From Pseudomonas sp. stari2 (GTDB lineage Bacteria > Pseudomonadota > Gammaproteobacteria > Pseudomonadales > Pseudomonadaceae): a stretch of DNA of 64,000 nucleotides. This document shows, piece after piece, positions 19,678 to 43,600 of this stretch (within the stretch, counting starts at the first letter, position 1; each line of letters begins with the position of its first letter). The position numbers and the translations under genes were made by a program. Where the stretch lies: assembly GCF_040760005.1 (NCBI RefSeq), contig NZ_CP099760.1, positions 4,335,501-4,399,500 on the forward strand, given 5' to 3'. The notes under the pieces are model-generated. The model searched no databases, was not told where the DNA came from, and saw only the letters and a program-made list of their open reading frames with translations.

Positions 19678-19844
19678 TTCGTTGAATCCCGTCGCAATCG
19701 GCCGACCGAAAAAACGCAGCGCGTCTTCGGAGGGGATCGGCTTGCTTGAAGAAAGTGGTTTTCGCGGCGCGGCACCACCGTGCTCCGCGCAAAGAGGGCT
19801 CACAAGGCCATTTCGATAAACGTCTAACAAAGTCGGAAACAACC

Positions 19845-22550
19845 ATGCTGATGAACACTCCACGCTTCACGCTCAAACCCTTGGTGGCGACGATTTCCCG
19901 CCACCGTTTCGTTCCGTTGTACCTGGTGGCCATGGGGATGGGCGCCGGGGTTCAGGCGGCCGAGGACGACAACAACGTCCCGGCCGCCGCTGCGGTGGTC
20001 GCACCGACCACGCAACTGCAACGGGTCGAGGTGACCGGTTCGGCGATCCGTCGGGTCGACGCGGAAACGGCGGTGCCGATCACCGTGCTCAAGGCCGATG
20101 AGCTGCGTAAACAGGGCGTGACCACCACCGCCGAACTGGTGCAGCGCATCACCGGCAGCCAGTCAATCAACAACAGCGCAGGCTCGGTCGGCGCGGCCAC
20201 CGGCGGCGCCTCGTTCGCCGACATGCGCGGCATCGGCGCGAACAAGACGCTGGTGCTGCTCAACGGTCGCCGGCTGGCCAACAACGCGCTGTCGGGCACC
20301 AACTCGGCCGGCGGCGCGGTGGATCTGAACATGATCCCGTTTGCCGCGATCGAGCGCGTGGAAGTACTGCGCGACGGCGCCTCGGCCCTGTACGGCACCG
20401 ATGCCATCGGCGGCGTGATCAATTTCATCACCAAAAAATCCATGACCGACGGCCAGCTCACCCTCGGCGGTGAAACCCCGACCCACAGCGGCGGCGGTGC
20501 GACCAAGGACATGAGCGCCAGTTGGGGCTACGGCGACCTGGAGCAGGACCGCTTCAACGTGCTCGGCGTGTTCAACTACAACAAGCAGCAGAACCTCGAC
20601 GCCAACGACCGCTCCTTCGCCCGCGACTACGTGCCCGGCCGTGGCCTGGACCAGACCTCAGGCACCGCGTTCCCCGGCAACTACAGCCAGAATGGCAACG
20701 CCACCAATCCACTGGCCAACAGCAATTGTAACGGCCCCAACCTGGTGGCCCGTGACGGCCTCTGCCGCTTCAGCACCCGCGAATACATCGACCTGGTGCC
20801 GCAGACAGAGAAGACTTCGTTCTTCGGCAAGACCACCGCCAAACTGGCCGACGATCACAACGTCAACCTCGAATACTTCTGGTCGCGCAATAACAACGCC
20901 ACCGCCGTGGGACCTGCGCCATTGACCGGCCTGAGCCTGGATTCGTCCTCGCCCTACTACCCCGGCAACGGCATCACCCCGGCGCCCACCGGTTTCGCCC
21001 TCGACCCGACGCAACCGGTGGACGTGAACTGGCGCGAAACCGCCGCCGGCCCCCGCGAATCGAAAGACCAGAACACCAGCCAGCGCTTTTTGCTGAGCTT
21101 CGACGGTCTGGTCGGCGGCTGGGACTACAACGTCGGCGCCTCGTACAACCAGAACAAGATCGTCTCCAGCGTCACCAGCGGCTACGTCAGCGATCAGGCG
21201 ATGATCAGTGGTCTGGCCAGCGGCCTGCTCAACCCGTTCGGCCCGCAGACCAGTGCCGGTCAGCAGTACATCGACCAAGCCATGTACCACGGTGCCTATT
21301 CCACGGCAGTCGGTCGGGTCGCCGGTTTCGACGGGCGGATCAGCCGCGAGATCGGCGACTGGTTCGGCGCCGGCCCGGCCGGTCTGGCACTGGGCGGCGA
21401 ATACCGCAAAGAGAAATTCCATCAGGACTTCGAGTCGTTCGCCGGTGATATCCAGAGCCTGGGCATCGACCCGGCCGGCAGCGTCGAGGGCGACCGCAGC
21501 GTGAAAGCCGCCTACGCGGAAATCAACGTGCCGGTGCTCGACAGCCTGGAACTGTCCGCCGCCGTGCGTCACGACAAATACAGCGATTTCGGCAGCACCA
21601 CCAACCCGAAATATTCGTTCCGCTATCAGCCACTCAAGGAACTGGTGGTGCGCGGTGCCTACAGCGAAGGCTTCCGCGCACCGTCGCTGTATGAGCTGTA
21701 TTCACCGCGCAGCATCACCTACACCCAGGGCTACTACAACGACCCGGTGCTGTGTACCGGCGGCGTGGTGCAACCGGGCGGCAACGGCGGGCGCGATTGC
21801 GGTCAGCAGTTCCTCAACCAGATCGGCGGCAACGAAGACCTGGCACCGGAGAAAGCACGCAACGTGACCTTGGGCTTCGTTTATCAGCCGGTCAACAATC
21901 TGTCCGTGGGACTGGACTTCTGGTGGATTCACATCTCCAACCAGATCCAGCCGTTCCCGGAGTCCACCGTGTTCGATCAGGCCGGCAGCTACCCCGACCG
22001 CTTCGTGCGCAACGCCGACGGCACGCTCAATTACATCGTCACCGGCAACGCCAACCTCGGCATCGTCGAAACCAACGGCGTTGACGTGTCGCTGGACTAT
22101 CGCTTCCCGAACACGCCGTACGGTCAGTTCGGTCTGGGCCTGCAAGGCACTTATGTCGACGAGTACGACTTTCAGAGCACCATCAAGGGCCCGTTCACCG
22201 ACAAGGTCGGCGACTTCAAGGGCGACGGTGTGATTGCCCGCTGGAAACACAACCTGACCGGTTCCTGGACCTTCGGCGCGGCCCGCGCGGCACTGACCAA
22301 CCGCTTCACCACCGGCTACAACGACTACGACCGCGAGACCAACGCACGGGTCGCGTCGTACTCGGTGTGGGACCTGTCGGCCGGCTACACCTTCGACAAG
22401 GTGCTGGACGTGGATGCGGGAGTGAAGAACCTGTTCGACCGCGACCCGCCGTTCACCAACCAGGCCTACAACTTCCAGAGCGGCTATGACCCGCGCTACA
22501 CCGATCCGCTGGGCCGCACGCTGTTTGCGCGCATGACGTACCACTTCTGA
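19845..22550 (+). CDS. TonB-dependent outer-membrane receptor
   Basis: A gated outer-membrane importer of about 901 residues. Signal peptide (about 1-40, ending GVQAA), then a TonB-box-like stretch QLQRVEVTGSAI, a plug domain (about 60-190; GIGANKTLVLLNGRRLANNA and VLRDGASALYGTDAIGGVIN are plug hallmarks) and a 22-strand barrel ending in Phe (TYHF). This branch, with a non-siderophore plug, often occurs with peptide or sugar uptake genes. The location between tonB-exbBD and a peptide ABC importer suggests that it brings peptide-like ligands into the periplasm. The ATG at 19845 fits the signal peptide; the frame runs 33 codons further upstream. The ribosome site is weak. Confidence 0.9.
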   Translation: MLMNTPRFTLKPLVATISRHRFVPLYLVAMGMGAGVQAAEDDNNVPAAAAVVAPTTQLQRVEVTGSAIRRVDAETAVPITVLKADELRKQGVTTTAELVQRITGSQSINNSAGSVGAATGGASFADMRGIGANKTLVLLNGRRLANNALSGTNSAGGAVDLNMIPFAAIERVEVLRDGASALYGTDAIGGVINFITKKSMTDGQLTLGGETPTHSGGGATKDMSASWGYGDLEQDRFNVLGVFNYNKQQNLDANDRSFARDYVPGRGLDQTSGTAFPGNYSQNGNATNPLANSNCNGPNLVARDGLCRFSTREYIDLVPQTEKTSFFGKTTAKLADDHNVNLEYFWSRNNNATAVGPAPLTGLSLDSSSPYYPGNGITPAPTGFALDPTQPVDVNWRETAAGPRESKDQNTSQRFLLSFDGLVGGWDYNVGASYNQNKIVSSVTSGYVSDQAMISGLASGLLNPFGPQTSAGQQYIDQAMYHGAYSTAVGRVAGFDGRISREIGDWFGAGPAGLALGGEYRKEKFHQDFESFAGDIQSLGIDPAGSVEGDRSVKAAYAEINVPVLDSLELSAAVRHDKYSDFGSTTNPKYSFRYQPLKELVVRGAYSEGFRAPSLYELYSPRSITYTQGYYNDPVLCTGGVVQPGGNGGRDCGQQFLNQIGGNEDLAPEKARNVTLGFVYQPVNNLSVGLDFWWIHISNQIQPFPESTVFDQAGSYPDRFVRNADGTLNYIVTGNANLGIVETNGVDVSLDYRFPNTPYGQFGLGLQGTYVDEYDFQSTIKGPFTDKVGDFKGDGVIARWKHNLTGSWTFGAARAALTNRFTTGYNDYDRETNARVASYSVWDLSAGYTFDKVLDVDAGVKNLFDRDPPFTNQAYNFQSGYDPRYTDPLGRTLFARMTYHF

Positions 22551-22660
22551 GTCCCGGTCGGGGCCGCGCAAGACTCCGGCCGGCCCCTTCCCCTTGCGAA
22601 TTCGCATCCCGCAGCGGCCACCCGCCGCTTCGGGTTTTTCCGGCTCAGAGGAACGACTTC

Positions 22661-24532
22661 ATGACAATCATGCGCAACATGGCCGGCCTGCTGCTCGGCA
22701 GTGCGCTGCTGTGCAACGCGGCATCCGCGCTGGCCGGCGGCAGCTACGCGATGACAGTGTATGGCGAGGCGCCAAAATACCCCGCGGGTTTCCAGCACTT
22801 CGATTTCGTCAATCCCGACGCCCCGAAGGGAGGCTCGCTCAGCCGCGCCTCAATGGAAATCGGTCAGTACAACTACATCACCCCGTATGCCGATCAGGGC
22901 ATTTCCGTGGTGCAGGTCAACGACTGGGTGTATTCGCCGCTGGCGTTCCGCTCGCTGGACGAGCCCTACACCGTCTATGGTCTGGTGGCGCAAACCATGG
23001 AGCGCGATACCGACGGTCTTTGGGTGCGTTTCAACCTCAATCCCGAGGCACGTTTCGCCGACGGCACACCGATCACCGCCGAGGACGTGCGCTACACCTT
23101 CGAGCTGTTGATGACCAAGGGCAGCCTGAGTTATCGCCAGCAATACGCCGATGTGCAGGACGTGCTGATCGAAGGCCCGCGACAGATTCGCTTCACCTTC
23201 AAGAACAACCTCAACCGCACTCTGGCGCTGGATCTGGCATCGCTGCGGCCAGTGCCCGAGCACTGGTGGAAAACCCGCGATTTCGCCAACGGCGGCGGCT
23301 TCGAACCACCACTGGGCAGCGGCCCGTACCGGGTGAGCAAGGTCGATGCGGGGCGCAGCATCGGTTTCCAGCGCGATCCGGATTGGTGGGGCAAGGACTT
23401 GCCGGTCAGTCGCGGGATGTACAACTTCGACAGCCTGACCGTGAACTTCTATGGCGACACCGACGTCGCCCGACAACTGCTGCAGGCCGGGGCGTTCGAC
23501 TACAACCGCGAGTTTTCTTCATCCGGCTACGTGGTCGGTTACGACAGCCCGGCCCTGCGCGACGGTCGCCTGCAACAGGCGATTCTCGCCCCGGACAAAC
23601 CGACCAGCGCCCAGGGGTTTGTGTTCAACCTGCAGAACCCGCTGTTCAAGGATCGCCGCGTGCGTCAGGCGCTGAGCCTGCTGTGGGATTTCGAGTGGAC
23701 CAACAAGCAGATGATGCGCGGCTTCTACGTGCGCCAGAACAGCTACTGGCCGAAGAGTGAAATGGCCGCCACCGCCCTGCCCGACGCCGGAGAACTGGCG
23801 ATCCTCGAGCCGCTGCGCGGACAGATCCCGGACGAAGTTTTCAACCGGGTCTATCAGGCGCCGAAAACCGATGGCAGCGGCTACATCCGCGACAAGCAGT
23901 TGCAGGCGCTGAAACTGCTGGCGGAGGCCGGATGGACGCCGAAAAACAACCGCCTGGTAAACGCCGCCGGAGAGCCATTCGAATTCACCTTCCTCGACGG
24001 CCAGGGCGGCTTCGACCGCATGCTGCTGCCCTACAAACGCACCCTGGCGCAGATCGGCATCACCCTGAATCTGCGGCGCATCGATTCGGCGCAATACATC
24101 AACCGGCTCAACGCCCGGGACTACGACATGATCGTCACCAGTTTCCCCCGCAGCGGCGATCCGATCGTCTCGCCGGGCCGCGAGTTGTACAGCCTGTATG
24201 CCTCGCAGAGCGCCACACAAGTCGGCAGCTCCAATTCGATGGTACTGGCGGACCCGGCGGTAGACCGGCTGATCGACGGCCTCGTCCAGGCCAATACCCG
24301 CGACGCCATGGTGCGTTACGCCCGCGCCCTCGACCGGGTGCTGCAATGGGGTGATTACATGATTCCCAACTACTACTCCAAAGGCACGCCGACGGTGTAT
24401 CAGAACCGCTTCGGCAGGCCGTCGGTGCAACCGATTTACAGCGAAGGCCTCGACACCTGGTGGGAGGTCTCGGCCAAGCCGCTGACCAACCAGCAGATGA
24501 GTGCCCTGCACCAACTCGCGGGGGGCCAGTGA
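22661..24532 (+). CDS. yejA: Peptide-binding protein of a Yej-type ABC importer
   Basis: A 623-residue periplasmic SBP_bac_5 protein with a signal peptide ending [26 protein letters not shown] and [19 protein letters not shown] are typical of the YejA branch, which is longer than DppA/OppA (about 530) and has no lipobox. YejA homologues capture peptides such as microcin C. The ATG has GAGGA 8 bases upstream. The yejB gene starts one base after the stop. It should receive what the TonB-dependent receptor delivers. Confidence 0.9.
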
Positions 24533-24533
24533 C

Positions 24534-25598
24534 ATGTGGCGTTATCTGAGTCGACGTCTGTTGCTGATCATCCCGACGCTGCTGTGCATTCTGGTGGTCA
24601 ACTTCGTCATCGTGCAGGCGGCGCCCGGCGGTCCGGTGGAGCAGGCCATCGCTCGCCTGCAAGGCTTCGGCGGGCACAGCATGGGCGGCGCCAGCGAAGT
24701 GACCGCGATCGGCGGTGCCGGGCGCAGCAGCCGTGGCCTGGACCCGGCGCTGATCGAAGAGATCAAGCACCACTACGGTTTCGACCGACCGATGCACGAA
24801 CGCCTGTGGCTGATGCTCAAGAACTACGCGCAACTGGACTTGGGCAGCAGTTTCTTTCGCGGTGCGAAAGTGACCGATCTGATCGTGCAGAAGCTGCCGG
24901 TGTCGCTGTCCCTCGGCCTGTGGGCGACCTTGATCACCTACCTGATTTCGATCCCGTTGGGGATCCGCAAGGCGATCAAAAACGGCAGCGCGTTCGATGT
25001 CTGGAGCAGCACGGCAATCATCGTCGGTTACGCGATGCCGGCGTTTCTGTTCGCGATTCTGTTGATCGTGGTGTTCGCCGGTGGCAGTTACGTCAACTGG
25101 TTTCCGGTACAGGGGCTGGTCTCGGACCACTTCGACAGCCTGAGCCTGTGGGGCAAGGTCGGCGACTACCTGTGGCATCTGGTGTTACCGGTGACGGCGC
25201 TGGTGATCGGCGGTTTTGCGACGTTGACGATCCTGACCAAAAACAGCTTCCTCAACGAGATCAGCCGTCAGTACGTGATCACCGCACGCGCCAAGGGCCT
25301 GACCGAAAGACGTGTGCTCTACGGCCATGTGTTTCGCAACGCGATGCTGCTGGTGGTGGCTGGTGTGCCGTCGGCATTGATCGAGGTGTTTTTCGCCGGT
25401 TCCCTGCTGATCGAAACCATCTTCAACCTCGATGGCCTCGGGCGCATGAGCTACGAAGCGGCGGTGTCACGGGACTACCCGGTGGTGTTCGGCACGCTGT
25501 TCCTGTTCACCCTGTTCGGCCTGTTGATCAAGCTGATCGGCGACCTCTGCTACACCCTGCTTGACCCGCGCATCGACTTCTCGGCGAGGACTGCCTGA
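24534..25598 (+). CDS. yejB: Peptide ABC importer permease, YejB-type
   Basis: A 354-residue inner-membrane permease with about six helices. The start [20 protein letters not shown] is the usual BPD_transp_1 N-terminal helix. [20 protein letters not shown] is the EAA-like cytoplasmic loop that docks on the ATPase. The insertion after the first helix ([18 protein letters not shown]) is a mark of YejB rather than DppB. The ATG at 24534 lies one base after the yejA stop. Confidence 0.92.
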
Positions 25599-26620
25599 TG
25601 TTCACACTTTCCCCTATGGGCCGGCGGCGCATCGCGCAATTCAAGGCCAACCGTCGCGGGCGCTGGTCGCTGTGGCTGTTCGTCGGACTGTGCCTGATCT
25701 GCCTCGGCGGCGAACTGATCGCCAACGACAAACCGCTGGTGATCCGCTACCACGACGCTTTTTACTTCCCGATCCTCAGCGATTATCAGGAAACCGATTT
25801 CGGCGGCGAATTGCCGTTCCAGCCGGATTACGCCAGCAATTACGTGCACCAACTGATCGAGGATCAGGGCGGCTGGATGCTGTTCCCGCCGATCCCGTTC
25901 AGCTACGACACGGTCAATTACGACCTTACGGAACCGGCGCCGAGCCCGCCATCCTCCAGCAACTGGCTGGGCACCGACGATCAGGCGCGGGACGTGTTGG
26001 CGCGGGTGATTTTCGGCACGCGGATTTCGATTCTGTTTGCGCTGATCCTCACCGCCGTCAGTGCGCTGGTCGGCATCGTGGCCGGGGCGTTGCAGGGTTA
26101 TTACGGCGGCTGGGTCGACTTGCTCGGGCAGCGGGTGCTGGAGATCTGGTCGGGGCTGCCGGTGCTGTACCTGCTGATTATTTTGTCGGGGTTCGTCTCG
26201 CCGAGTTTCTGGTGGCTGCTGGGGATCATGGCGCTGTTTTCCTGGCTGGCACTGGTGGACGTGGTGCGCGCCGAGTTCCTGCGCGGGCGCAGCCTGGAAT
26301 ACGTCAAGGCCGCACGGGCCCTGGGCCTGACGGACAGCGAGCTGATGCGCCGGCACATTCTGCCCAACGCCATGACCTCCACCCTCACCTACCTGCCGTT
26401 CATTCTGACCGGCGCCATCGCCACCCTCACCGCGCTGGACTTTCTCGGCTTCGGCATGCCCGCCGGCACCGCGTCGCTGGGTGAACTGATCGGCCAGGCC
26501 AAGCGCAATCTGCAAGCGCCGTGGCTGGGGCTGACGGCGTTTTTTGCCCTGGCGCTGATTCTGTCCTTGCTGGTGTTTATCGGCGAAGCCTGCCGTGACG
26601 CATTCGATCCGCGATCCTGA
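25598..26620 (+). CDS. yejE: Peptide ABC importer permease, YejE-type
   Basis: A 340-residue permease. The long periplasmic stretch after the first helix (NDKPLVIRYHDAFYFPIL, then YDLTEPAPSPPSSSNWLGTD) is specific to YejE. The EAA loop is LEYVKAARALGLTDSELMRR. It pairs with YejB as the translocation pore. The start overlaps the yejB stop (TGATG). Confidence 0.92.
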   Translation: MFTLSPMGRRRIAQFKANRRGRWSLWLFVGLCLICLGGELIANDKPLVIRYHDAFYFPILSDYQETDFGGELPFQPDYASNYVHQLIEDQGGWMLFPPIPFSYDTVNYDLTEPAPSPPSSSNWLGTDDQARDVLARVIFGTRISILFALILTAVSALVGIVAGALQGYYGGWVDLLGQRVLEIWSGLPVLYLLIILSGFVSPSFWWLLGIMALFSWLALVDVVRAEFLRGRSLEYVKAARALGLTDSELMRRHILPNAMTSTLTYLPFILTGAIATLTALDFLGFGMPAGTASLGELIGQAKRNLQAPWLGLTAFFALALILSLLVFIGEACRDAFDPRS

Positions 26621-26634
26621 TCCCCGGAGCTGAA

Positions 26635-28245
26635 ATGACCGACAACCTGATTGAAATTCGCGACCTGCGCGTCGCCTTCGCCGGGCATGAAGTGGTGCAC
26701 GGCGTGAACCTCGACATCCGCCGTGGCGAGTGCCTGGCACTGGTCGGCGAATCCGGCTCGGGCAAGTCGGTGACGGCGCACTCGATCCTGCGTTTGCTGC
26801 CAACCAAGACCGTCAGCAGCACGGGCAGCATCCGCTACAACGGCGTGGACTTGCTGCGCGCCAGCGAACAACAGCTGCGCGGCTTGCGCGGCAACCGCAT
26901 CGCGATGATTTTCCAGGAGCCGATGACTTCGCTGAACCCGCTGCACACGGTGGAAAAACAGATCAGCGAAGTGCTGGAGATCCACAAGGGGCTCAAGGGT
27001 CGCGCCGCGCGCCAGCGCACGCTGGAGCTGCTGGAACTGGTGGGCATTCGCCAACCGTTGCAACGGTTGAAGGCCTATCCGCACCAGCTCTCCGGCGGCC
27101 AGCGGCAACGAGTGATGATCGCCATGGCGCTGGCCAACGAACCCGAATTGCTGATCGCCGATGAGCCGACCACGGCGCTGGACGTGACCGTGCAGCAGAA
27201 GATTCTCGAGCTGCTGATCGAGTTGCAGCAACGCCTCGGCATGTCGCTGCTGCTGATCAGTCACGACCTCAACCTGGTGCGGCGCATCGCCCAACGGGTG
27301 TGTGTGATGCGCCACGGGGAAATCGTCGAACAGGCCGACTGCGCAACGCTGTTCCGCACCCCGCAGCATCCCTACAGCCGCCTGCTGATCGAGGCGGAAC
27401 CGTCGGGCGCACCAGTGCCGAGTCGCTACGATCACAACCTGCTGGAAGTGGACGATCTGAAAGTCTGGTTCCCGCTGCCCAAGGCGTTGTTCAGCCGCAC
27501 CCAGGAATACATCAAGGCCGTGGACGGCGTGAGTTTCCGTCTGCAACGGGGCAAGACCCTGGGCATTGTCGGCGAGTCCGGCTCGGGCAAGTCGACGCTG
27601 GGCCAGGCGATTCTGCGGCTGGTGGAATCCGAAGGCGACATTCGGTTCGGCAACAAGCAATTGAACCTGTTCAATCAGCGCTTGATGCGCCCGTTGCGCC
27701 GGCAGATCCAGGTGGTGTTCCAGGACCCGTTCGGCAGCCTCAGCCCACGGATGTCGGTGCAGCAGATCATCGCCGAAGGCCTGCTGACCCACGGTATCGG
27801 CACGGCCGAGGAACGTGAGGCGGCGGTGATCCGCGTGCTGGAGGAAGTCGGCCTCGACCCACGGAGCCGCCATCGCTATCCCCACGAATTCTCCGGCGGC
27901 CAGCGCCAGCGCATTTCCATCGCCCGGGCACTGGTGCTGGAACCGGCGCTGATACTGCTCGATGAACCGACCTCGGCGCTGGATCGCACGGTGCAGAAAC
28001 AGGTGGTGGAATTGTTGCGGCAATTGCAGATCCGTCACGGCTTGACGTACCTGTTCATCAGCCATGACCTGGCGGTGGTGCATGCGCTGGCGCACGACTT
28101 GATGGTGATCAAGGATGGAAAAGTGGTGGAACAGGGATCATCGCGAGAGATTTTTGCAGCGCCGCAGCATGCTTATACGCAAGCGTTGCTCAAGGCTTCG
28201 GGTTTGGTACAGGTACAGAGTGCCGAGCGAATGGCTGTGCTTTGA
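26635..28245 (+). CDS. yejF: Peptide ABC importer ATPase with two nucleotide-binding domains, YejF-type
   Basis: A 536-residue fused ATPase. Each half has Walker A GESGSGKS (about residues 39 and 318), a signature (LSGGQRQRV and FSGGQRQRI), and Walker B (LLIADEP and LILLDEP). The fusion is a mark of YejF as opposed to separate DppD/DppF. An oligopeptide-type C-terminal extension follows the first domain ([11 protein letters not shown]). It completes the yejABEF set; the repeat-protein gene follows after 110 bases. Confidence 0.93.
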
Positions 28246-28355
28246 GAAACATCATCGGCGTCGATGTTCACCATCACGTCAATGAAGTTCTCATAAAAAA
28301 TCCCGGGCGTAACATCGGCTCCATACCAACCAATAACACCCCGGAGCACAAAATC

Positions 28356-28835
28356 ATGAAACGCCAAGTCATCCTCAGCATTGCCCTTTCGGTTCTGGCC
28401 TTCAACGCTTTTGCCGCCAAACCTGCCCACACCATGATCGCTGAAGGCGGTTCGGATCGGTTGATCGAACAGCGCGTCGCTGAAGGTGGTTCGGATCGCC
28501 TGCTGGAACGCCGTGTTGCCGAAGGTGGCTCGGATCGCCTGCAAGAACGTCGCGTCGCTGAAGGTGGTTCGGATCGTCTGCAAGAACGTCGCGTTGCCGA
28601 AGGTGGTTCGGATCGCCTGCTGGAACGCCGTGTTGCCGAAGGTGGTTCGGATCGTCTGCAAGAACGTCGCGTTGCCGAAGGTGGTTCGGATCGCCTGCTG
28701 GAACGCCGTGTTGCCGAAGGTGGTTCGGATCGTCTGCAAGAACGCCGTGTTGCCGAAGGTGGTTCGGATCGTCTGCAAGAACGTCGCGTCGCTGAAGGTG
28801 GCTCGGATCGTCTGATCGAACGCCGCGTTGCCTGA
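28356..28835 (+). CDS. Exported protein of ten tandem 13-residue repeats, possible peptide precursor
   Basis: A 159-residue protein: a Sec signal peptide (about 1-21, MKRQVILSIALSVLAFNAFA), a 6-residue linker, then ten copies of (V/I)AEGGSDRL(L/Q/I)E(R/Q)R and a final Val-Ala. Nothing else is present: no Cys, no His in the repeats, no anchor. Each internal repeat ends Arg-Arg, a possible processing site, which would release many near-identical peptides of up to 13 residues. The open frame extends further upstream, but the ATG at 28356 gives the signal peptide and has GGAG 10 bases before. It follows yejF in the same direction and ends at a terminator, so it may belong to the uptake operon. 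Function is unknown; the precursor idea is inference. A structural or adhesive repeat protein is an alternative. Confidence 0.8.
   Translation: MKRQVILSIALSVLAFNAFAAKPAHTMIAEGGSDRLIEQRVAEGGSDRLLERRVAEGGSDRLQERRVAEGGSDRLQERRVAEGGSDRLLERRVAEGGSDRLQERRVAEGGSDRLLERRVAEGGSDRLQERRVAEGGSDRLQERRVAEGGSDRLIERRVA
28437..28826 (+). repeat. Ten in-frame 39-bp tandem repeats
   Basis: Ten contiguous 39-base units encode the repeat protein. Two unit types alternate for part of the array (encoding LLERR or LQERR), forming a 78-base higher-order unit. The first and last units (LIEQR, LIERR) differ from the core. Near-identity at third codon positions suggests recent duplication or gene conversion, and the copy number is likely to vary between strains. 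Confidence 0.95.
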
Positions 28836-28865
28836 ATGAATGGCTCCACCGCAGTAACCCAGAGA

Positions 28866-28896
28866 AAACCCGGCTCCCGTCAGCCGGGTTTTTTTC
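28866..28896 (+). terminator. Terminator after the repeat-protein gene
   Basis: AAACCCGGCT pairs with AGCCGGGTTT around the loop CCCGTC, followed by a run of T. It closes the + strand unit that runs from yejA to the repeat gene. Confidence 0.9.
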
Positions 28897-28910: not shown

Positions 28911-29999
28911 TCAGTCCTTGGCCATGCAACGTCGATAGCGCTCGTCGACCCGCTTGGCGAACCACGCGGTGGTCAGTTTGCGGGTGATCTTAGGGCTCTG
29001 CAGAACGATCCCAGGCAACACCGCCCGTGGCAATGATTTGCCTTCTGCCTTATCCGCCAGTTCGAAGACCCGTTGATACAGTTTGGTCTCCTCGAATCCC
29101 AAGGTGTTGCCCTTTTCCAGTTGCTCGCGGATCACCGGATTGCGCATGCCCAATGATTTGCCGAGTCGGCGCACCGCCAGTTCGGTGGTGCCCGGCATGA
29201 TCGAGTCGTAGCGGATCAGGTCACCATCCAGCGCCAGCGGAACGCCCGAGACGCGACTGACTGCATTCTGAAACGCCGCATTGCGACTGGCGTACCACCC
29301 TGCATTGAAGTCGGCAAAACGGTACAGCGGTTCGCGATAACTCACCGGATAACCCAACAAATGGGCGATGCCGAAATACATGCCGCCTCGGCGGGTGAAC
29401 ACTTCGTGGCGAATGGTGCCGTTCACCGGATACGGATACCCCTTGGCGTGCTGCTCGGCGAACTCGATGCTGACCTGCATCGGCCCGGCGGTGTGCACCG
29501 GGTTGAAACCGCCAAACAGCGTGCGCCCCATCGGCACCATGCCGATGAAGTCATCGAAAATGGCGCTCAGGTCTTTCTCGGTACGTGCTGCGCTCAGGCG
29601 TTCGCTATAGCTCTTGCCGTTGGGCGAGCGCACCTGCAAGGCGCCGCTGACCAACAGGCTCGGGATGTGCACTTTGGCGGCTCGGCGGTCGATCTCGTCG
29701 CGGGCAATCTTGCCCAGGCCCGGCACCGGCGGGTCGACCTGAAAGTTGGATTCCTGCTCGGCGACGGCCAGCACCGAACACAGGTTTTGCGTGGTCGGGC
29801 TGATGCCCTGGGCGGCGAACGCGGTGTAGATGTCCGTGGCCCAGCCCTGGCGGTCGGCGGTTTTCGCCGGCAGCAGGCGCACGATCTGCGCCTTGACCTC
29901 GGCCGGCGCGCGCGGGGCCGGCTCCTGGCTGCGCTGCCCGGCGCAACCGGCCAGCATCAGCAGCGCGGCGAGGCTGAGAAATAATCGAGGGCTTTGCAT
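28911..29999 (-). CDS. DUF1615-family lipoprotein
   Basis: A 362-residue predicted lipoprotein: signal peptide with lipobox LAGC (Cys19), then a DUF1615 domain across the rest. CSVLAVAEQESNFQVDP resembles the catalytic-Glu region of lytic transglycosylases, and GPMQVSIEFAEQHAKGYPYP resembles their substrate motif, so a peptidoglycan-related role is plausible but not shown. The ATG at 29999 has GGAG 5 bases upstream; the frame continues further back without a credible start. No operon partner. Confidence 0.8.
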   Translation of the reverse strand: MQSPRLFLSLAALLMLAGCAGQRSQEPAPRAPAEVKAQIVRLLPAKTADRQGWATDIYTAFAAQGISPTTQNLCSVLAVAEQESNFQVDPPVPGLGKIARDEIDRRAAKVHIPSLLVSGALQVRSPNGKSYSERLSAARTEKDLSAIFDDFIGMVPMGRTLFGGFNPVHTAGPMQVSIEFAEQHAKGYPYPVNGTIRHEVFTRRGGMYFGIAHLLGYPVSYREPLYRFADFNAGWYASRNAAFQNAVSRVSGVPLALDGDLIRYDSIMPGTTELAVRRLGKSLGMRNPVIREQLEKGNTLGFEETKLYQRVFELADKAEGKSLPRAVLPGIVLQSPKITRKLTTAWFAKRVDERYRRCMAKD

Positions 30000-30183
30000 A
30001 ACGCTCCATGAAGTCCGTTGAGCCGGGTTTACCCTACGCCCAATCCCGGGTTGCAGGATAGGACTACGGGCCGGCGACGCTGTTCCATCGCCCCGTCTGG
30101 CAGGCCGACTGGCCGTGCCCGCCCGCTGATCCATACTTGCTGCTGCACACTCAGTGGCAAAGGGCACGCGAGGAGGACAGACC

Positions 30184-31719
30184 ATGAACCGCAGTGACGT
30201 TCTGATCATCGGCGCAGGCCCCACCGGATTGGTACTGGCCCTGTGGCTGAGCAAACTGGGCGTGCGCGTGCGCATCATCGACAAGAGCTCCGCGCCGGGC
30301 ACCACTTCTCGGGCGCTGGCGGTGCAGGCGCGCACCCTTGAGCTGTACCGACAACTGGATCTGGCCGACGCGATCGTGCGCAACGGACACCGGGTGGCGG
30401 CGGCGAATTTCTGGGTCAAGGGCAAACCCGTGGCGCGGCTGCCGCTCAATCGCATCGGCGAAGGCCTGACGCCTTACGCCTTCCTGGAAATCTACCCGCA
30501 GGACGAACACGAGCGACTGTTGATCGACCGCCTCGAAGACTACGACGTGACCGTCGAGCGCAACACAACGCTTGAGAGTTTCACGGAAAACGGCGACGGC
30601 CTCACCGCGCATTTGCGCCTGCCGGATGGCGAGCAGGAAATCTGTCAGGCCTGCTATCTCGCCGGGTGTGACGGCGCCCGTTCAGTCGTGCGCAAAACCC
30701 TCGACACCGGTTTTCCCGGTGGCACTTATCAGCAGATTTTCTACGTCGCCGATGTGCGGGCCAGCGGTCCGGCGCTCAACGGCGAGTTGCATCTGGATCT
30801 GGACGAAGCGGACTTTCTGGCGGTGTTCCCGCTGGCCGGCGAAGGCCGTGCGCGGCTGATTGGCACCGTGCGCGACGAACGTGCGGAGCGCGCCGAAACC
30901 CTGGAGTTTTCCGATGTCAGCAGCCGCGCCATCGAGCATTTGAACGTGCACATCGAGGACGTCAACTGGTTCTCCACTTACCGCGTGCATCATCGGGTGG
31001 CGGATCACTTTCGCAAAGGCCGGGCGTTTCTGCTTGGCGACGCGGCCCACGTGCACAGCCCCGCCGGCGGCCAAGGCATGAACACCGGCATCGGCGATGC
31101 GATCAATCTGGCGTGGAAACTCGCGGCGGTGCTCGGCGGCGGCGCCACGGCAAAGCTGCTCGACAGCTACGAAACCGAGCGCATCGCCTTCGCCCGGCGG
31201 CTGGTGTCGACCACCGACAAGGTCTTCAGCTTCGTCACCGCCGAAGGGCGAATGGCCGACCTGTTGCGCACGCGGCTGGCACCCTTCGTGATCCCGAAAA
31301 TGGCCTCATTCGAGACCAGCCGCGAATTCCTGTTTCGCACGGTATCGCAAATCACCGTCAACTATCGAGGCATGGCGTTGAGCGAAGGAGTGGCCGGGCA
31401 CGTCCACGGCGGCGACCGCTTGCCGTGGGCCCATGATGGCGAGGGGGATAATTACGAACCGCTGCGCAATCCATGCTGGCAGGTGCATGTCTACGGCGAC
31501 ACCAGCGACGAGATGATCGCCTGGTGCAATGAACATCACCTGCCGCTGCACGTGTTCGACTGGCGCCCGGCGTTTGAAACGGCGGGACTGGGGCGCAACG
31601 GCTTTTACCTGTTGCGCCCGGATACTTACGTGGCGATTGCCGACAACAGCGCGGATCCGAAGGTGATCGAGCGGTATTTGCGAGATCACGGGATCCGTCC
31701 GTTTTTCAATTGCCCCTGA
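30184..31719 (+). CDS. FAD-dependent aromatic monooxygenase (PheA/TfdB type)
   Basis: A 511-residue flavoprotein hydroxylase. It carries the dinucleotide motif IIGAGPTGLVLALWLSKLG at the N-terminus, a DG-type motif (YLAGCDGARSVVRK, about 155-168), and GDAAHVHSPAGGQGMNTGIG (about 285-305), which binds the FAD ribityl. The C-terminal thioredoxin-like part is present but short. Such enzymes hydroxylate phenolic rings with NAD(P)H and O2. No ring-cleavage genes are adjacent, so the substrate is unknown. The ATG at 30184 is preceded by GAGGAGGA. Confidence 0.9.
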   Translation: MNRSDVLIIGAGPTGLVLALWLSKLGVRVRIIDKSSAPGTTSRALAVQARTLELYRQLDLADAIVRNGHRVAAANFWVKGKPVARLPLNRIGEGLTPYAFLEIYPQDEHERLLIDRLEDYDVTVERNTTLESFTENGDGLTAHLRLPDGEQEICQACYLAGCDGARSVVRKTLDTGFPGGTYQQIFYVADVRASGPALNGELHLDLDEADFLAVFPLAGEGRARLIGTVRDERAERAETLEFSDVSSRAIEHLNVHIEDVNWFSTYRVHHRVADHFRKGRAFLLGDAAHVHSPAGGQGMNTGIGDAINLAWKLAAVLGGGATAKLLDSYETERIAFARRLVSTTDKVFSFVTAEGRMADLLRTRLAPFVIPKMASFETSREFLFRTVSQITVNYRGMALSEGVAGHVHGGDRLPWAHDGEGDNYEPLRNPCWQVHVYGDTSDEMIAWCNEHHLPLHVFDWRPAFETAGLGRNGFYLLRPDTYVAIADNSADPKVIERYLRDHGIRPFFNCP

Positions 31720-37638: not shown

Positions 37639-40600
37639 TCAGAAGCTTTGGCTGAAGCTGATGGTCATTGCGCTGTCGTTGTTGTCGCTGGACACCTGGC
37701 CCGAATAGCCGATGCCGAGCTTGCCGGTCGGGCTGATCTGGAAGTCCACGCCGGCTTCGAGCAGTGCGCTGTCCTTGGCGATCGGCACGCCCTGGGTGCT
37801 GAACGAGGCACCGCCGTCGATGAAGGTCAAATCGGCATCCGGCTTGGTGTCGCCGTAGGCATGCCGCCAGCCGATGGCTGCGCGCGGGGTCAGTTGACTG
37901 CCGTTGGCCAGGGTCACCAGCTTGCCGATGCGCACACCGAGGGTCGAGTAAGTGATGTCCTGATCGGCATCGCCTTTCAGACGCCCCACCCCGCCTTTTT
38001 CCTTGGCGGTGTCGCTGTCGTAGTTGACGTAGGCCAGGCCGGCGAACGGTTCGATGGCCACGCCTGCCGCATTGATGGCGTAACCCACCTCACCGAACAC
38101 CTGGGCACTGCGGGCATCGTAGTCAGCCTTCAGACGGTCGTTGTAGCTGCCGACGCTGACGTCGCGTTTGGTCTCGATGCTGTGCCAGCTGTAGGCCGCG
38201 CCGAGGCGCACGGCCAGTGCATCGAACTGCGAACTCAGGTACGCCGCCAGGTGGTAGCTGTCGACCTTGGCATCGGAGTTGCGATCGTGGGCGTTGAGAT
38301 TGCCACGGGTGTAGCCCGCGGCCATCCCGGCACGCCACTGATCGTCCAGTTGCTTGTCGGTGCCGAGCATGAAACCGCCGAGGCTGCGATCGACTTTCGC
38401 CGTGTTGCTGTCGCCGCCCATGTCGCCCCAGGCGCCGATGGCGCGGGCCCAGCCGACCATTTCACCGTGGCAACCGTTGCTGCTCAACTGGGTATCGCTC
38501 GGTGCCAGAGTCCGGCGTGGATCGTCCGACGCGCTGCAAGTCGGTTGACGCATCCGGTCGTTGACCGCTTCACGCACGAAACGTGAATCTTCAAGAACCG
38601 CACTCGCAGTGCTGGCATGGATCTCCCCGGACAGACTGTCGAAGGCATGACGCGCACCGGCCACGCTGAGGTTGACGATTTCGTTCTGCAACGCAGCGCC
38701 CGCCGGACCGTTGCGCATCAACGCCGAAGCAGTGTTGCGCTGGTTGCCGGTGGCGGCGACGTCGGCGAACGAGTTGCCGTTGCGGCTGACCACCAGGTTC
38801 ACCGCGTCAGGGCTGTATACCAGCGCCGCGTCGAGGAACGCATATTGCGGTAGATCGGCTGCGCTGAAGGTGCCGGTCACCCCTCCGCCAGCAGTGATCA
38901 GCGAATACACGGTGTTGCCGGTGAACGGCGCCAGGCTGTTCACTTGCAGGCCACCGCCCAGGGTTGCCGTGCCGCCGACGGCCAGAGGCGTAGCGGTTGG
39001 CGAACTGACGGTCAGGGCCAGCACACCGTCGGCTGCATTGGTCAGATTGCCCGCCACACTCAAGGTGCCGTCACCGCCACCGGAGGCCACCACGCCGTGG
39101 TTGACCACCGAACCGACGCTGCCGTTACCGCTCAGTCCCGCGCCGTTGGCCACGGTCACTTGCCCGCCCAGAGAAGCCCGCGCCGCACGACTGCCGACCT
39201 GCAGCACGCCTTGATCCACCGAAACGGCGCCACTGAACGGCTGATCGCCGGTCAACAGCAAGGTTCCGGTACCGCGTTTGGCCAGCGCACCGGTACCGCT
39301 TAGGCGACCGTTGAACTTGCCATCGGCGTTCTGCTGGAACACCAGCGCCGCGTTGTCGATGATGTTGCCTTGCAGGCTGGTGCTGTTACCGATCAGCGTA
39401 CCGCCGCTGACGGTGGTGCCACCGCTGTAGGTGTTGGCTGCGGTGAGGATCAGCGTGCCGGCGTCGAGCTTCTCGATACCACCAGTGCCGATCAACGGCA
39501 CATCGATTTGCGCGCTGGCACCGGCGTTAACGCGGATCGGTGCCGGTGTACCGCCCGCGCCATTGACCGGCGTGAGCGTATCGCCGGCGTCCGGCACCAG
39601 GCTGTATCCGTTGACAAGGAATTGCAGCCCCGTGAATTGCTGATTGCCCTGCACGGTGACCGTACCACCCTGCCCGCCGAACACCGCGAATTGACCACTG
39701 GAGCCCTGTGCCTGGGTGCCGGTCGGGTCGGTCCAGTTGGTGCCGGGTCCCCACACGCCGTTGCCACCACCGATGGTGCCATCCGGATTGGTTTTGCCAC
39801 CGTTCCAGAACTGCACCTCACCCGGCGCATTCTGCACCAACAGGTTGATCTGATTGGCCAGTGCGGTTTGCAGGGTCAGGTTGGCTGCCGAAACCGGCAG
39901 GCTGCCGAAGACCAGACCGTTGTTGGTCAGGTTGCCGCCGTAGGTAAACAGTTGGTAGACCCCGGTGCCGAAGCCGCCGGCATTGCTGATGTTCAGCGTA
40001 CCGTCGAGGGTCAGGTTGCCGGCGACGTTGACCACGGTGGTGGAGCTGGCGGCCGAGCCGAGGCTGAAATCCAGGTTGGTTCCCGACGACAACGCCAGCG
40101 AACCGACGGACAACGGCGTCGTGCCGCTGCCACCGAGCAGCGTGGCACCGTCGGCCAACTGCACAGCCCCGCCGAAATGACCGCTGCCACCGATTTTCGC
40201 TCCACTGGCGACATTGACACTGGCGCTGTTGAGCACACCGTTGACGTTGAGCGTACCGGCCTGCACCGCCGTGTTGCCGGTAAAGGTGTTGTTGCCGGTC
40301 AGCAGCAACGCGCCGGTACCGGTTTTGGTCAGACTGCCGGCGCCGGTGAGATTGCCGGTGTAGCTGCCATCGCTGTTCTGCTCGAAGGTCAGCGCCGCGT
40401 TGTTGACGATAGCGCCTTGCAGGCTGCTAGTGTCGCCACGGGTGTTGCCGCCGTTCAGCGTGGTGCCACCGCTGTAGGTGTTGGCACCGCTGAGCAACAG
40501 GTCGCCGCTGCCGTTTTTCACCAGACTGCCGCTGCCGGTGATCGCACCGATCAGCGTGGTGTTCAGGTTGCCGGCCAGGGTCAGTTGCGCACCGAGGTTG

Positions 40601-43600
40601 ATGGCGTTGGACAGTTGCAGCGCCGAGGTGCTGTCGAGAGTGCCGTTGCCCGACACACTCAATGCACCGCTGCTGATCGCGCTGTTGTTGCCCAGAATCA
40701 GCGTGCCACCGGCGAGCTGAGTACCGCCGCTGTAGGTGTTGCTGCCATTGAGGGTCAGGCTCGATGGACCGGTCTTGATCAGGCTGCCGCTGCCGCTGAC
40801 CACACCGCCGAGAGTCAAGGCGTTGGAACCGGCGACGGTGAGCCCGCCATTGAGCACCACATCGTTGGCCAGGCTGACGGCCGTGTTGCTGTCCAGCGCC
40901 GTGCCGTTGGCGGCGGTCAATACGCCAGTGCCAAGGGCCGCGTTGTTGCCGACCACAATCTTGCCGCCGTTGAGCGCGGTGCCGCCGGTGTAACCGTTGG
41001 CGGCGTTGAGCACCAGAGTGCCGGTGTCGTATTTGCCCAGTGTGCCGGCGCCGTTGAGCGCGACGCCAATGGTCGCCGTAGCGTTCGGATCGACCCGCAC
41101 GGTGGCATTGCCCAGCGAACCGTTGACCAGATTCAGCGAACCCGCCGTACCGTTCTGCAGGCTGTAGCCGTCGGTGACGAACTGCATGCCGGTGATGGTC
41201 TGGGCGCCGTTGACGGTCACGGTGCCTGCCGCGCCCTGGAACACCGCGAAGTTGTTGGTCCAGGCCTGGTTGGTGGTGCCGTTCACATCGGTCCAGTTGG
41301 TGGTCCCAGTGCCCCAGATGCCGCTGCCGCCATCGACCGAACCGTTGGCAACAAGCTGGTTGCCGTCCCAGAACTGCACGGTGACGCCCGGTGCAGTAAC
41401 CAGCAGGTTGATCTGGTTGGCCAGTGCGGTTTGCAGGGTCAGGTCGCCCGGCGTGACACTGCCCGGCACGGTGCCGATCAGCATGCCGTTGTCGGTCAGG
41501 CCGCCGGTGTAGTTGATCAGGCGATACACGCCGCTGCCGAATCCGCCGATATCGCTGACGTTGAGGGTGCCGTCGAGGGTCAGATTGCCGCCGACGTTGA
41601 CCAGCGCGTTACCGCCGCCGGAAACCGGTGCGCCGAGGCCAACATCGAAGTTGGAGTTGGCGTTGAACACCAGCGAGTTCACCGACAGGGTGCTGCCGGT
41701 GGCGCCGGCCAGATGACCTCCATCCGCCACGGTCACCGCCCCGCCGAGCGAGCCGCCGCCGGTCAGGGTGCCGCCGCTGTTAACCAGTACGCTGGCGCTG
41801 TCCAGCGAACCGCTGACGTTCAAGGTGCCGGCGTTGACCGTGGTGTTGCCGGTCAGGCTGTTGAGGCCGGTCAGGGTCAGCGTTCCGGTGCCGAGTTTGC
41901 TCAGTTCGCCGGTGCCGGTGAGCACACCGTCGAAAATGCTGCTGGCGTTGTTGCCGCCGATGCTCAGGGTGTTGCCGCCGCCGATCAATGCGGTACCGCT
42001 GCCGGTCAGGCTGGCGAGGCTGCCGGAGCCGCCGAGGTTGAGGGTCGCCGCAGCGCCGAGATTGACCCCGGCGTTGCTGCCCAGTGCCGAGTTGCCCAGG
42101 GTGGTGAGGCTGCCAGCCTGCACGTCGAAGGTGCCGCCGAAGGTGTTGTTGCCGGTCAGCGTCAGGTCGGCCAGACCGTTCTTGGTCAGTGTGCCCGCGC
42201 CGGCGATCACGCCGCCGAGCGTCAGGTTGTTGTTGCCGGCCACGCTCAGGTTGGCATTGACGTTGAGGTTGTTGGCCAGCACCAGCGGCGCCGTGGTGTC
42301 GAGGGTCGACGCACCCGCCACGGTCACCGCGCCGGAACCCAGGCCCGCCGAGGTACCGAGGGTCACGGTGCCGGCATTCATCGTGGTGCCGCCGCTGTAG
42401 GTGTTGATGCCGTTGAGGGTCAGGTTGGACGCGCCATTTTTGATCAGGCCACCGGTTCCGCTGACTACACCACTGAGGGCCACGTCGCTGTTGCCGATGT
42501 TGGTCAGGTTGGCGTTGAGCACCACGTTGTTGCCCAGCGACACCGAGGTGTTGCTGTCCAGCGCCGACGCACCGGCCACCGTCAGGTTGCCCAGACCGAG
42601 GGCGCCGTTGCTACCGGCGGTCAAGGTGCCGGCATTGAGGGTGACGCCGCCAAGGAAGTTGTTGGACCCACTCAGGATCAGGTTGGCCGCGCCGTTCTTG
42701 GTCAGGCTGCCGGCGCCGTTGATCGCACCGCTCAACGTCAGATCGTTGCTGCCGACGATGCCAAGGTTGCCCGCCAGGTTGATCGCGTTACCCGCGCTGA
42801 AGGCGCCGCTGGCATCCAGAGTGGTGCCGTTCGCCGCGTTCAGGGTGGCCGAGCCCAGCGCGCTGTTCGACGCCAGAATCAGACCGCCCGCGTTCAGTGC
42901 CACCGGCCCGAGGAAAGCGTTGTTGCCGCCGAGGGTCAGGCTGGCCGCGCCGTTCTTGATCAGGCCGCCGGTACCGGAAATGACACCGTTGAGGGTCAGC
43001 GCATTGCTGCCCAGCAGGGTGAGGTTGCCATTGAGCGTGGCAGCGTTGGCCAGGGTCACGGCGGTGTTGCTGTCCAGTTGTGTACCGGCATTGGCGATCA
43101 ACGCGCCAGTGCCCAGGGCGGTGTTGCTGCCGACCACCAGGGTGCCGCCATCCAGTTGCGTGCCGCCGGTGTAGCTGTTGGCGCCGTTGAGCACCAGGGT
43201 GCCGGCGTCGAGTTTGTTGAGGATGCCGCTGCCGTCGATGTTCACACCGACCGTGGCGGTCACGCCCGGATCGACCCGCATCGCCGTGGTGCCGCCGGTA
43301 CCGTTGACGGCGGTCAGCAAGCCCGACGAACCGTTGATCACGTTGTAGCCATCGGTGAGGAATTGCATCCCGGTGAACAGTTGCGTGCCGTTGACCGACA
43401 CCGTGCCGGCCGTGCCCTGGAACACCGCGAAGTCGCCGGCCCAGGTCTGATTCAGCGTGCCGTTGGAATTGGTCCAGTTAGTGCCGCCGGCATCCCAGGT
43501 GCCAGTGCCGCCATCCACCGTGCCGTTCGGAATTGTCTGGCTGCCGTCCCAGAAACGCAGGTTGGTATTCGGCGCCGACACCACCAGGTTGACCTGGTTG

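Follow-up and report, generated by a model that had tools for sequence, protein, structure and literature searches.

A predicted exported Pseudomonas protein of ten 13-residue units belongs to a genus-wide, uncharacterised family and lies beside yejF through a deletion

The window, a stretch of 64,000 nucleotides of Pseudomonas sp. stari2 DNA that was analysed as a whole, contains a short gene directly behind the peptide importer gene yejF whose product consists of almost nothing but ten near-identical units of 13 residues. What is such a protein for, and does it have anything to do with the importer next to it? A sequence-only reading had proposed that the array might be cut at its basic residues into many short peptides, and that these might be a self-made ligand which the neighbouring TonB/Yej system takes up again. 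We compared the gene with its relatives in other genomes, with known repeat proteins and with its own surroundings. The features of the locus to which the text refers are:

26635..28245, + strand: yejF, upstream neighbour through a deletion only
28203..28236, + strand: deletion junction at which the DUF3455-ECF-RskA operon is missing, from an alignment with seven relatives
28260..28325, + strand: conserved control region GTCGATgGTCACCATCAnnnCAATGAAGTTCTC(A/T)TAAAAA-n7-GCGTAACATCnGCTCCATACC, strongest part 28282-28312
28356..28835, + strand: repeat-protein gene, 159 amino acids, predicted to be exported, from the open reading frame and homologs
28356..28415, + strand: Sec-type signal peptide MKRQVILSIALSVLAFNAFA, judged by eye
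28437..28826, + strand: ten 13-residue units [IV]AEGGSDRL[ILQ]E[QR]R of 39 bases each, from Tandem Repeats Finder and translation
28862..28895, + strand: intrinsic terminator 3' of the repeat gene, with a 14-pair stem and a T tract
28911..30455, - strand: DUF1615 gene, convergent downstream neighbour and synteny anchor of the locus; its start codon is uncertain and the true gene probably shorter

The reading frame at 28356-28835 (+) is open over 159 codons. It encodes MKRQVILSIALSVLAFNAFA (20 residues), a seven-residue lead (AKPAHTM), the ten units and a final VA before the stop codon. By inspection MKRQVILSIALSVLAFNAFA has the Lys/Arg start, the hydrophobic core and the A-F-A cleavage site of a signal peptide, and the signal peptides of other MKRQ-type members closely resemble it. 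The description of the protein as an apparent Sec-type signal peptide followed only by ten 13-residue units is borne out. The same is true for the Arg-Arg ends of the internal copies, which are found in units 2-10, unit 1 ending in Gln-Arg. The array (28437-28826) is free of insertions and deletions and is reported by Tandem Repeats Finder with a period of 39 (10.0 copies, score 521) and also with a period of 117 (score 629). Differences between units are mostly silent, with a pN/pS of 0.15 for all unit pairs of the window gene, 0.20 within its paralog and 0.09 for the window gene against the paralog, unit by unit; these are uncorrected proportions, and homogenisation of the repeats makes the unit pairs non-independent. 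Because the units differ mainly at silent sites, and because 420 homologs exist, the array is not a product of chance. The gene also lies where it had been said to lie, on the same strand as yejF, whose end (28245) is 110 bases away on the 5' side, and in front of a terminator (28862-28895). Complete with a control region, a signal peptide, an array and a terminator of its own, it appears to be a stand-alone unit.

A homology search in which 7998 candidates were scored recovered 420 relatives at E<=0.001. Names were read from 120 listed relatives of the 420; the organisms named among these are all Pseudomonas, except for one compost metagenome, and many of the 120 are called hypothetical or 'phage infection protein'. 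Within the genus, 88 of 99 genomes carry at least one copy (E<=1e-10), many of them several. At the level of the order, matches were found in 3 of 145 genomes (E<=1e-8), namely the own genome, a second genome of the genus and one from a sister genus; outside the genus, by a list ordered by kinship, one of 143 genomes has the family. In the own genome a 94% paralog stands at 4147784, 3' of a CM_2 (chorismate mutase II) gene, and less closely related copies are found at 849 kb and 3894 kb. In the loci analysed, the signal peptide starts with MKR, MKS, MKG or MKC in 120 of 129 copies, the other nine being of three types. Pfam contains no domain that matches the window protein and no family that any of 14 tested members matches above cut-off, and the PDB gave no sequence match at E<=1. 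Moreover, no study of the repeat protein or of the repeat string was found in the open-licence literature, in line with the earlier remark that no precursor with this repeat is known to have been described. The family would therefore, by the databases searched, be uncharacterised and genus-wide in Pseudomonas. Two loci with unusual arrangements were seen along the way. In genome G023 (L095) five repeat genes follow one another, mostly with 12-residue units (VAQDGSDRTMNR). At L178:816-2637 a response-regulator-like gene (by eye), a repeat gene of the MFNFSKV type and a gene for a small exported protein stand in a row; the small protein has the tail VAENRPEFGSK, and some repeat proteins (P0070, P0117) end in the similar VAENR.EFGSKYQRY.

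Which part of the unit is conserved was read from 156 distinct 13-mers of 244 proteins, where positions 2, 3, 4, 5 and 7 are partly fixed by the search pattern and only the others are free. R8 and L9 are nearly constant (variability 0.64 and 0.75 bits), positions 1 and 6 show 1.2-1.5 bits and positions 10-13 show 1.7-3.0 bits. The proposed dibasic cut site is not the conserved part: a pair of Arg or Lys at positions 12-13 is present in only 35 of the 156 distinct units and in 453 of 916 linkers, in a sample that leans to close relatives, and linkers such as ERR, ENR, ESR, QNR and GNT interchange. A conserved basic pair between units, as a dibasic-processed precursor needs, was not found. Since R8 and L9 are near-constant while positions 10-13 vary most, the conserved element is the core and not the cut site. 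The distance from core to core is 13 residues in 845 of 928 cases, 12 in 46, 14 in 17 and 15 in 8, and a protein contains 3 to 15 cores, 3 being the lower limit set for the count. Variable spacing and variable number suggest that a chain of motifs fits better than a rigid fold. Our best reading, which we hold tentatively and at somewhat less than an even chance, is that of an abundant, stress-induced, exported chain of the envelope that would act whole and present many short motifs.

Arrays of other units occur in the same setting. A relaxed search for the control region brought up further genes that combine it with an MKRQ signal peptide but whose array is made of AATETDPLFSDAV, also 13 residues long and in some chains interspersed with VASDGSDHLQGNR and VAEGGADRLLERR. 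A search with the AATETDPLFSDAV type gave 44 relatives at E<=0.001, and DPLFSDAV is present in 12 of the 13 that were read. Arrays of AATETDPLFSDAV are found at L225-L233 and L237-L239, and at the majority of them the chain also contains GSD-type units. One protein of the own genome (L047, 7962-8663) is filled by a third unit, VASDGADHVGAGA, and has 12 D-G-[AS]-D-H cores and its own C-terminal tail after the array; this type has 51 relatives, some of them in P. syringae and P. savastanoi. The frame V-A-x4-D-x-[LV] and the length are kept across the unit types, and the content changes.

The main rival to a chain that acts whole is its release as peptides. According to this explanation, which we judge possible but on the unlikely side, the protein would be a multi-copy precursor without any tie to Yej that is cut after Arg into 13-residue peptides acting outside the cell as a signal, an antifungal or a decoy. 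Secreted peptides are known to be made from multi-copy precursors, for example the yeast alpha-factor precursor, and the repeat protein shares with them a signal peptide followed by near-identical short units. The near-constant unit length, the Arg with which 106 of 156 distinct units end (position 13), the several genes per genome and the use of the same control region and signal peptide with AATETDPLFSDAV, VASDGSDHLQGNR and VAEGGADRLLERR, like interchangeable cargo, would all suit such a precursor. However, the supposed cut-site end is the most variable part of the unit, AATETDPLFSDAV and VASDGADHVGAGA have no basic residue at the unit end, and Arg also occurs inside the core (R8). In contrast to the known precursors, moreover, no processing signal is conserved between the units of the repeat family, and none of the neighbour genes tested is constant.

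A variant that leaves open whether the chain is cut is a cassette system: a single conserved control region with a single signal peptide would be joined to interchangeable 13-residue arrays that are delivered upon exposure to toxic aromatics. We consider such a system unlikely. Its units would be VAEGGSDRLxxRR, VAADGSDRLQGNT, VASDGSDHLQGNR and AATETDPLFSDAV, sometimes mixed in one chain. They would reach the envelope or the surroundings together, whole or cut, with fungi as one example of a source of the aromatics.

Among the closest known systems is PtrA (PA2808, NF041599), like the window protein small, exported and from Pseudomonas, with the core A-E-G-G-x-D-R common to both. Passages of PMC8872213, PMC11195947, PMC7744410 and PMC8531726 describe copper/zinc induction and a periplasmic location for PtrA. 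The window protein scores 77 bits with the NCBIfam PtrA model (NF041599; cut-off 31) by summing its repeats, and the relatives P0031, P0045 and P0070 also pass the cut-off with 60.4, 46.8 and 48.7 bits, the best stretch of P0045 covering model positions 7-30, through the end of the signal peptide. The best single stretch of the window protein, however, covers 11 of the 46 model positions (21-31), and a single unit reaches 12.9-13.8 bits by itself, or 34.7-36.5 bits when its neighbours are included, whereas the true PtrA genes of the own genome score 70 and 68.3 bits over positions 1-45. P0076, P0099 and L046 stay below the cut-off, and P0119 and L047 give no match. Membership in PtrA was rejected because a full-length match to the 46-position domain was not obtained. 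A many-headed relative of PtrA that binds metal through the repeated E-G-G-x-D-R would be a looser form of kinship. It could draw on the summed score, on the three relatives above the cut-off and on the AEGGGDRTF(D/E)R at the signal-peptide end of the two PtrA proteins of the own genome. We nevertheless find it improbable, since PtrA has one core followed by unique sequence whereas the window protein has ten cores and little else, since its unit is without His or Cys, and since no metal-efflux genes were noticed by eye among the listed neighbours of the repeat genes. The PtrA genes of the own genome are a tandem pair (4213782-4214183, L048) with a single AEGGGDR core each, and they adjoin RND metal efflux-like genes (by eye).

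The composition of the protein recalls hydrophilins. In the mature window protein 30 basic residues are balanced by 30 acidic ones, aromatic residues and Cys are absent, Gly makes up 14.4% and GRAVY is -1.09; 43% of its residues are charged, and the net charge is zero. Both its glycine content and its GRAVY lie within the limits of the hydrophilin criteria, which, in the relevant part of PMC4190154, include Gly >6% and GRAVY < -1. Among the relatives, Gly exceeds 6% in 115 of 115 and GRAVY is below -1 in 14 of 115, with a mean of -0.79. The charge-hydropathy rule treats a protein below its boundary as unfolded. A hand calculation puts the scaled hydropathy of the window protein at 0.379, against a boundary of 0.413, so that by this rule it would be unfolded; for the family as a whole, disorder is predicted to be borderline. 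A periplasmic hydrophilin- or LEA-like shield against drying or osmotic stress would account for a glycine-rich, hydrophilic, charge-balanced chain of short repeated units, but it is quite improbable: the repeat protein, unlike hydrophilins and LEA proteins, has a signal peptide and a specific core whose conservation exceeds what a shield needs, and most of its relatives (101 of 115, with GRAVY -1 or above) miss the hydropathy criterion.

We regard an RTX-like calcium-binding repeat built on the half motif G-x-D-x-L as very improbable: that signature is present in some units, units such as DGSDRLQGN presumably resemble the RTX nonapeptide, and P0162 obtains 14.8 bits with PF00353, but the period is 13 and not 9, the window protein and the eight other relatives tested give no match, and the RTX assignment was rejected because the 23-bit cut-off was not reached. 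A phage origin was likewise rejected. Phage families gave only weak matches (best E 0.0017), the best five of which are of unknown function, and the name 'phage infection protein', carried by many among the 120 listed relatives, is therefore without support. Repeats are also found elsewhere in the window, where an open reading frame of 3506 amino acids (37639-48159, -) looks repeat-rich and autotransporter-like by eye; imperfect 258-base DNA repeats at 45317-46167 lie within its region.

The tie to the Yej importer was assessed from the neighbours of the repeat genes. Of 113 rows, 107 are distinct by flank and 100 have at least 3.5 kb upstream; these 100 copies were drawn from the own genome, from 20 selected stretches and from the 80 top loci of a longer list, and a yejF match required 55% identity. 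In this set, which leans to close relatives that share old positions (DUF1615, CM_2, pirin) and are not independent events, direct contact with yejF occurs in one copy, the window itself. In 19 copies yejF is 2.0-2.4 kb off, with a DUF3455-ECF sigma-RskA operon in between, and in 80 there is no yejF within 3.5 kb. DUF1615 lies convergent on the 3' side in 33 copies, 27 of which have the DUF3455-ECF sigma-RskA anti-sigma operon at most 1 kb upstream; yejF follows beyond the operon in 19 of the 27 and is absent within 3.5 kb in 8. Seven further DUF1615 copies with longer flanks (L241-L247) show no yej match in their stretch. Moreover, CM_2 precedes 21 of the 100 copies and a pirin gene precedes 10; 36 are without any tested neighbour, and no neighbour is constant. 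The uptake genes themselves, a TonB-dependent receptor followed by yejABEF (19839-28245 in the window), have the same order in L248; there the ECF operon separates them from the repeat gene.

How the repeat gene came to adjoin yejF can be read from the alignment with relatives. Similarity in yejF is lost between 28163 and 28202, depending on the relative, and picks up again from 28237, within the final codons of the anti-sigma gene (from 28247-28250 in the two more distant relatives). This shows that the DUF3455-ECF-RskA operon has been deleted here, bringing the repeat gene next to yejF. The window yejF seems to end at the former stop codon of the anti-sigma gene, in a family where YejF ends vary between relatives. 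The best matches in the own genome to the anti-sigma gene and to the sigma factor have 29% and 38% identity, and no close counterpart of either lost gene was found elsewhere in it. In genome G034 (L084) the match to the anti-sigma gene is in two pieces in different frames, so this gene may be broken, or the assembly may contain an error.

A conserved direct gene link to the YejABEF/TonB uptake unit was thus not found, and because the only direct contact is explained by a deletion, the repeat gene would not be tied to Yej/TonB. That the cell re-imports its own ligand or nutrient through the neighbouring TonB receptor and YejABEF has the adjacency in the own genome and the 19 copies a short way behind yejF on its side, but is hardly tenable given the tally above and a control region of the gene's own. 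The absence of a yej link in other strains had been named beforehand among the observations that would speak against this interpretation, and it is largely what the genomes present; on this comparison the Yej interpretation fails.

About 65 bases on the 5' side of the gene are conserved across copies at different loci, including those at DUF1615, CM_2, pirin and other genes. A strict pattern fits 92 of 129 copies, always with 18 bases between its two elements. A looser rule fits 102 of 129, all of the MKR/MKS/MKG/MKC class (102 of 120); none of the nine copies of other signal-peptide classes has the region. A 31-base pattern with at most three mismatches is present in 45 of 99 genus genomes (0 for the reversed control), and its only sites in the own genome are 5' of the window gene and of its 94% paralog. 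A shorter promoter pattern occurs in the own genome at 6 places, two of them repeat genes, against 20 for the reversed control; only the longer pattern is specific, the shorter one being below its control level. Of 16 control-region sites that were fetched, 15 lead into an array-type gene of one unit or more. No array gene follows the site in L235, which is perhaps what remains of a lost copy. The pattern is missing from about half of the genomes with the family (45 vs 88), and the control region is thus not family-wide. Its recurrence at unrelated loci suggests that the repeat gene is independent of the yej operon for its promoter.

The layout GAAGTT-18-CGTA looks like a candidate ECF-type promoter; alternatively, it may be an activator site plus a weak -10 element. 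No sigma-70 promoter was predicted at the threshold of the tool. The AlgU consensus given in a section of PMC7641640 is GAACTT-N16/17-TCTNN, which the second element of the control region does not fit; the same section describes the SigX consensus as not precisely defined. Control by the sigma factor of the neighbouring DUF3455-ECF-RskA operon was rejected because the control region is equally frequent with and without the operon (the anti-sigma gene is present in 27 of 45 pattern-bearing genomes and in 34 of the 54 others, counted by hand at E<=1e-30), because the own genome has lost the operon, and because no similar site was seen by eye 5' of the operon itself in L089. Co-control with pirin, azoreductase, cupin or carboxymuconolactone decarboxylase genes from a common promoter was rejected as well, since by eye no site was seen that they share with the repeat gene.

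The codon use of the window gene is that of abundant proteins. Its codon adaptation is 0.757, and that of its paralogs 0.738 and 0.755, compared with 0.458-0.691 in 11 ordinary genes (a set from which the DUF1615 piece was left out) and a mean of 0.73 in 26 open reading frames of the ribosomal-protein operon region. The same protein written in ordinary codons would be expected at 0.515, with a 95th percentile of 0.58, although ten near-identical units that copy one another are not ten independent codon samples. The part that encodes the signal peptide (0.597) equals expectation and has no bias, and the L047 paralog (0.53) has none either.

Expression data from other strains are a lead, not proof, since AL066_13550 of P. 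fluorescens In5 and C0J56_00080 of P. fluorescens 2P24 are linked to the family through their annotated name. As reported in PMC5557065, AL066_13550, a 'Phage infection protein', is up 32.4-fold in In5 versus Rhizoctonia solani, a rise that is absent with Pythium, and an alpha/beta hydrolase, quercetin 2,3-dioxygenases, a pirin, azoreductases and a glutathionyl-hydroquinone reductase rise with it. In 2P24, a 'Phage infection protein' with a Sec/SPI signal is up-regulated by InvF (PMC8490769, Table 3), and the relevant part of PMC7466150 concerns an abortive-infection protein. In one lineage, of a single synteny, the repeat gene follows a pirin gene at about 145 bases. Quercetin dioxygenase, pirin, azoreductase and hydroquinone reductase are the company of quinone and electrophile defence, and this company of the In5 gene fits that lineage. 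The upstream region of the pirin gene differs from the control region of the repeat gene. In L046, L091, L098 and L127 there are azoreductase genes at a distance of a few kb, which may be coincidence.

To return to the reading of an exported chain that acts whole, its copies would have spread within genomes as control region plus gene, and large amounts of the product would be made when a stress reaches the envelope. After export it would remain mostly uncut, in the periplasm or on the cell surface, as a charge-balanced and perhaps unfolded chain, presenting many A-E-G-G-S-D-R-L cores to a partner, to an ion or to the envelope itself. The number of units would tune the number of sites, and the product would not be a ligand for the neighbouring importer. 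This reading is weakened because only 45 of 88 family genomes carry the control-region pattern.

No function is known for this family, which 88 of the 99 genus genomes carry; none of its 14 tested members reaches the cut-off of a Pfam family, and the name given to many members misleads. The inducer of the control region would define the stress, and a strain without copies would define the role. Where units differ in content but keep their length, signal peptide and control region, the product could be a peptide or a building block, which mass spectrometry can test; and if the cassette system were true, bacteria would have an as yet undescribed way of displaying or delivering peptides in multi-unit form.
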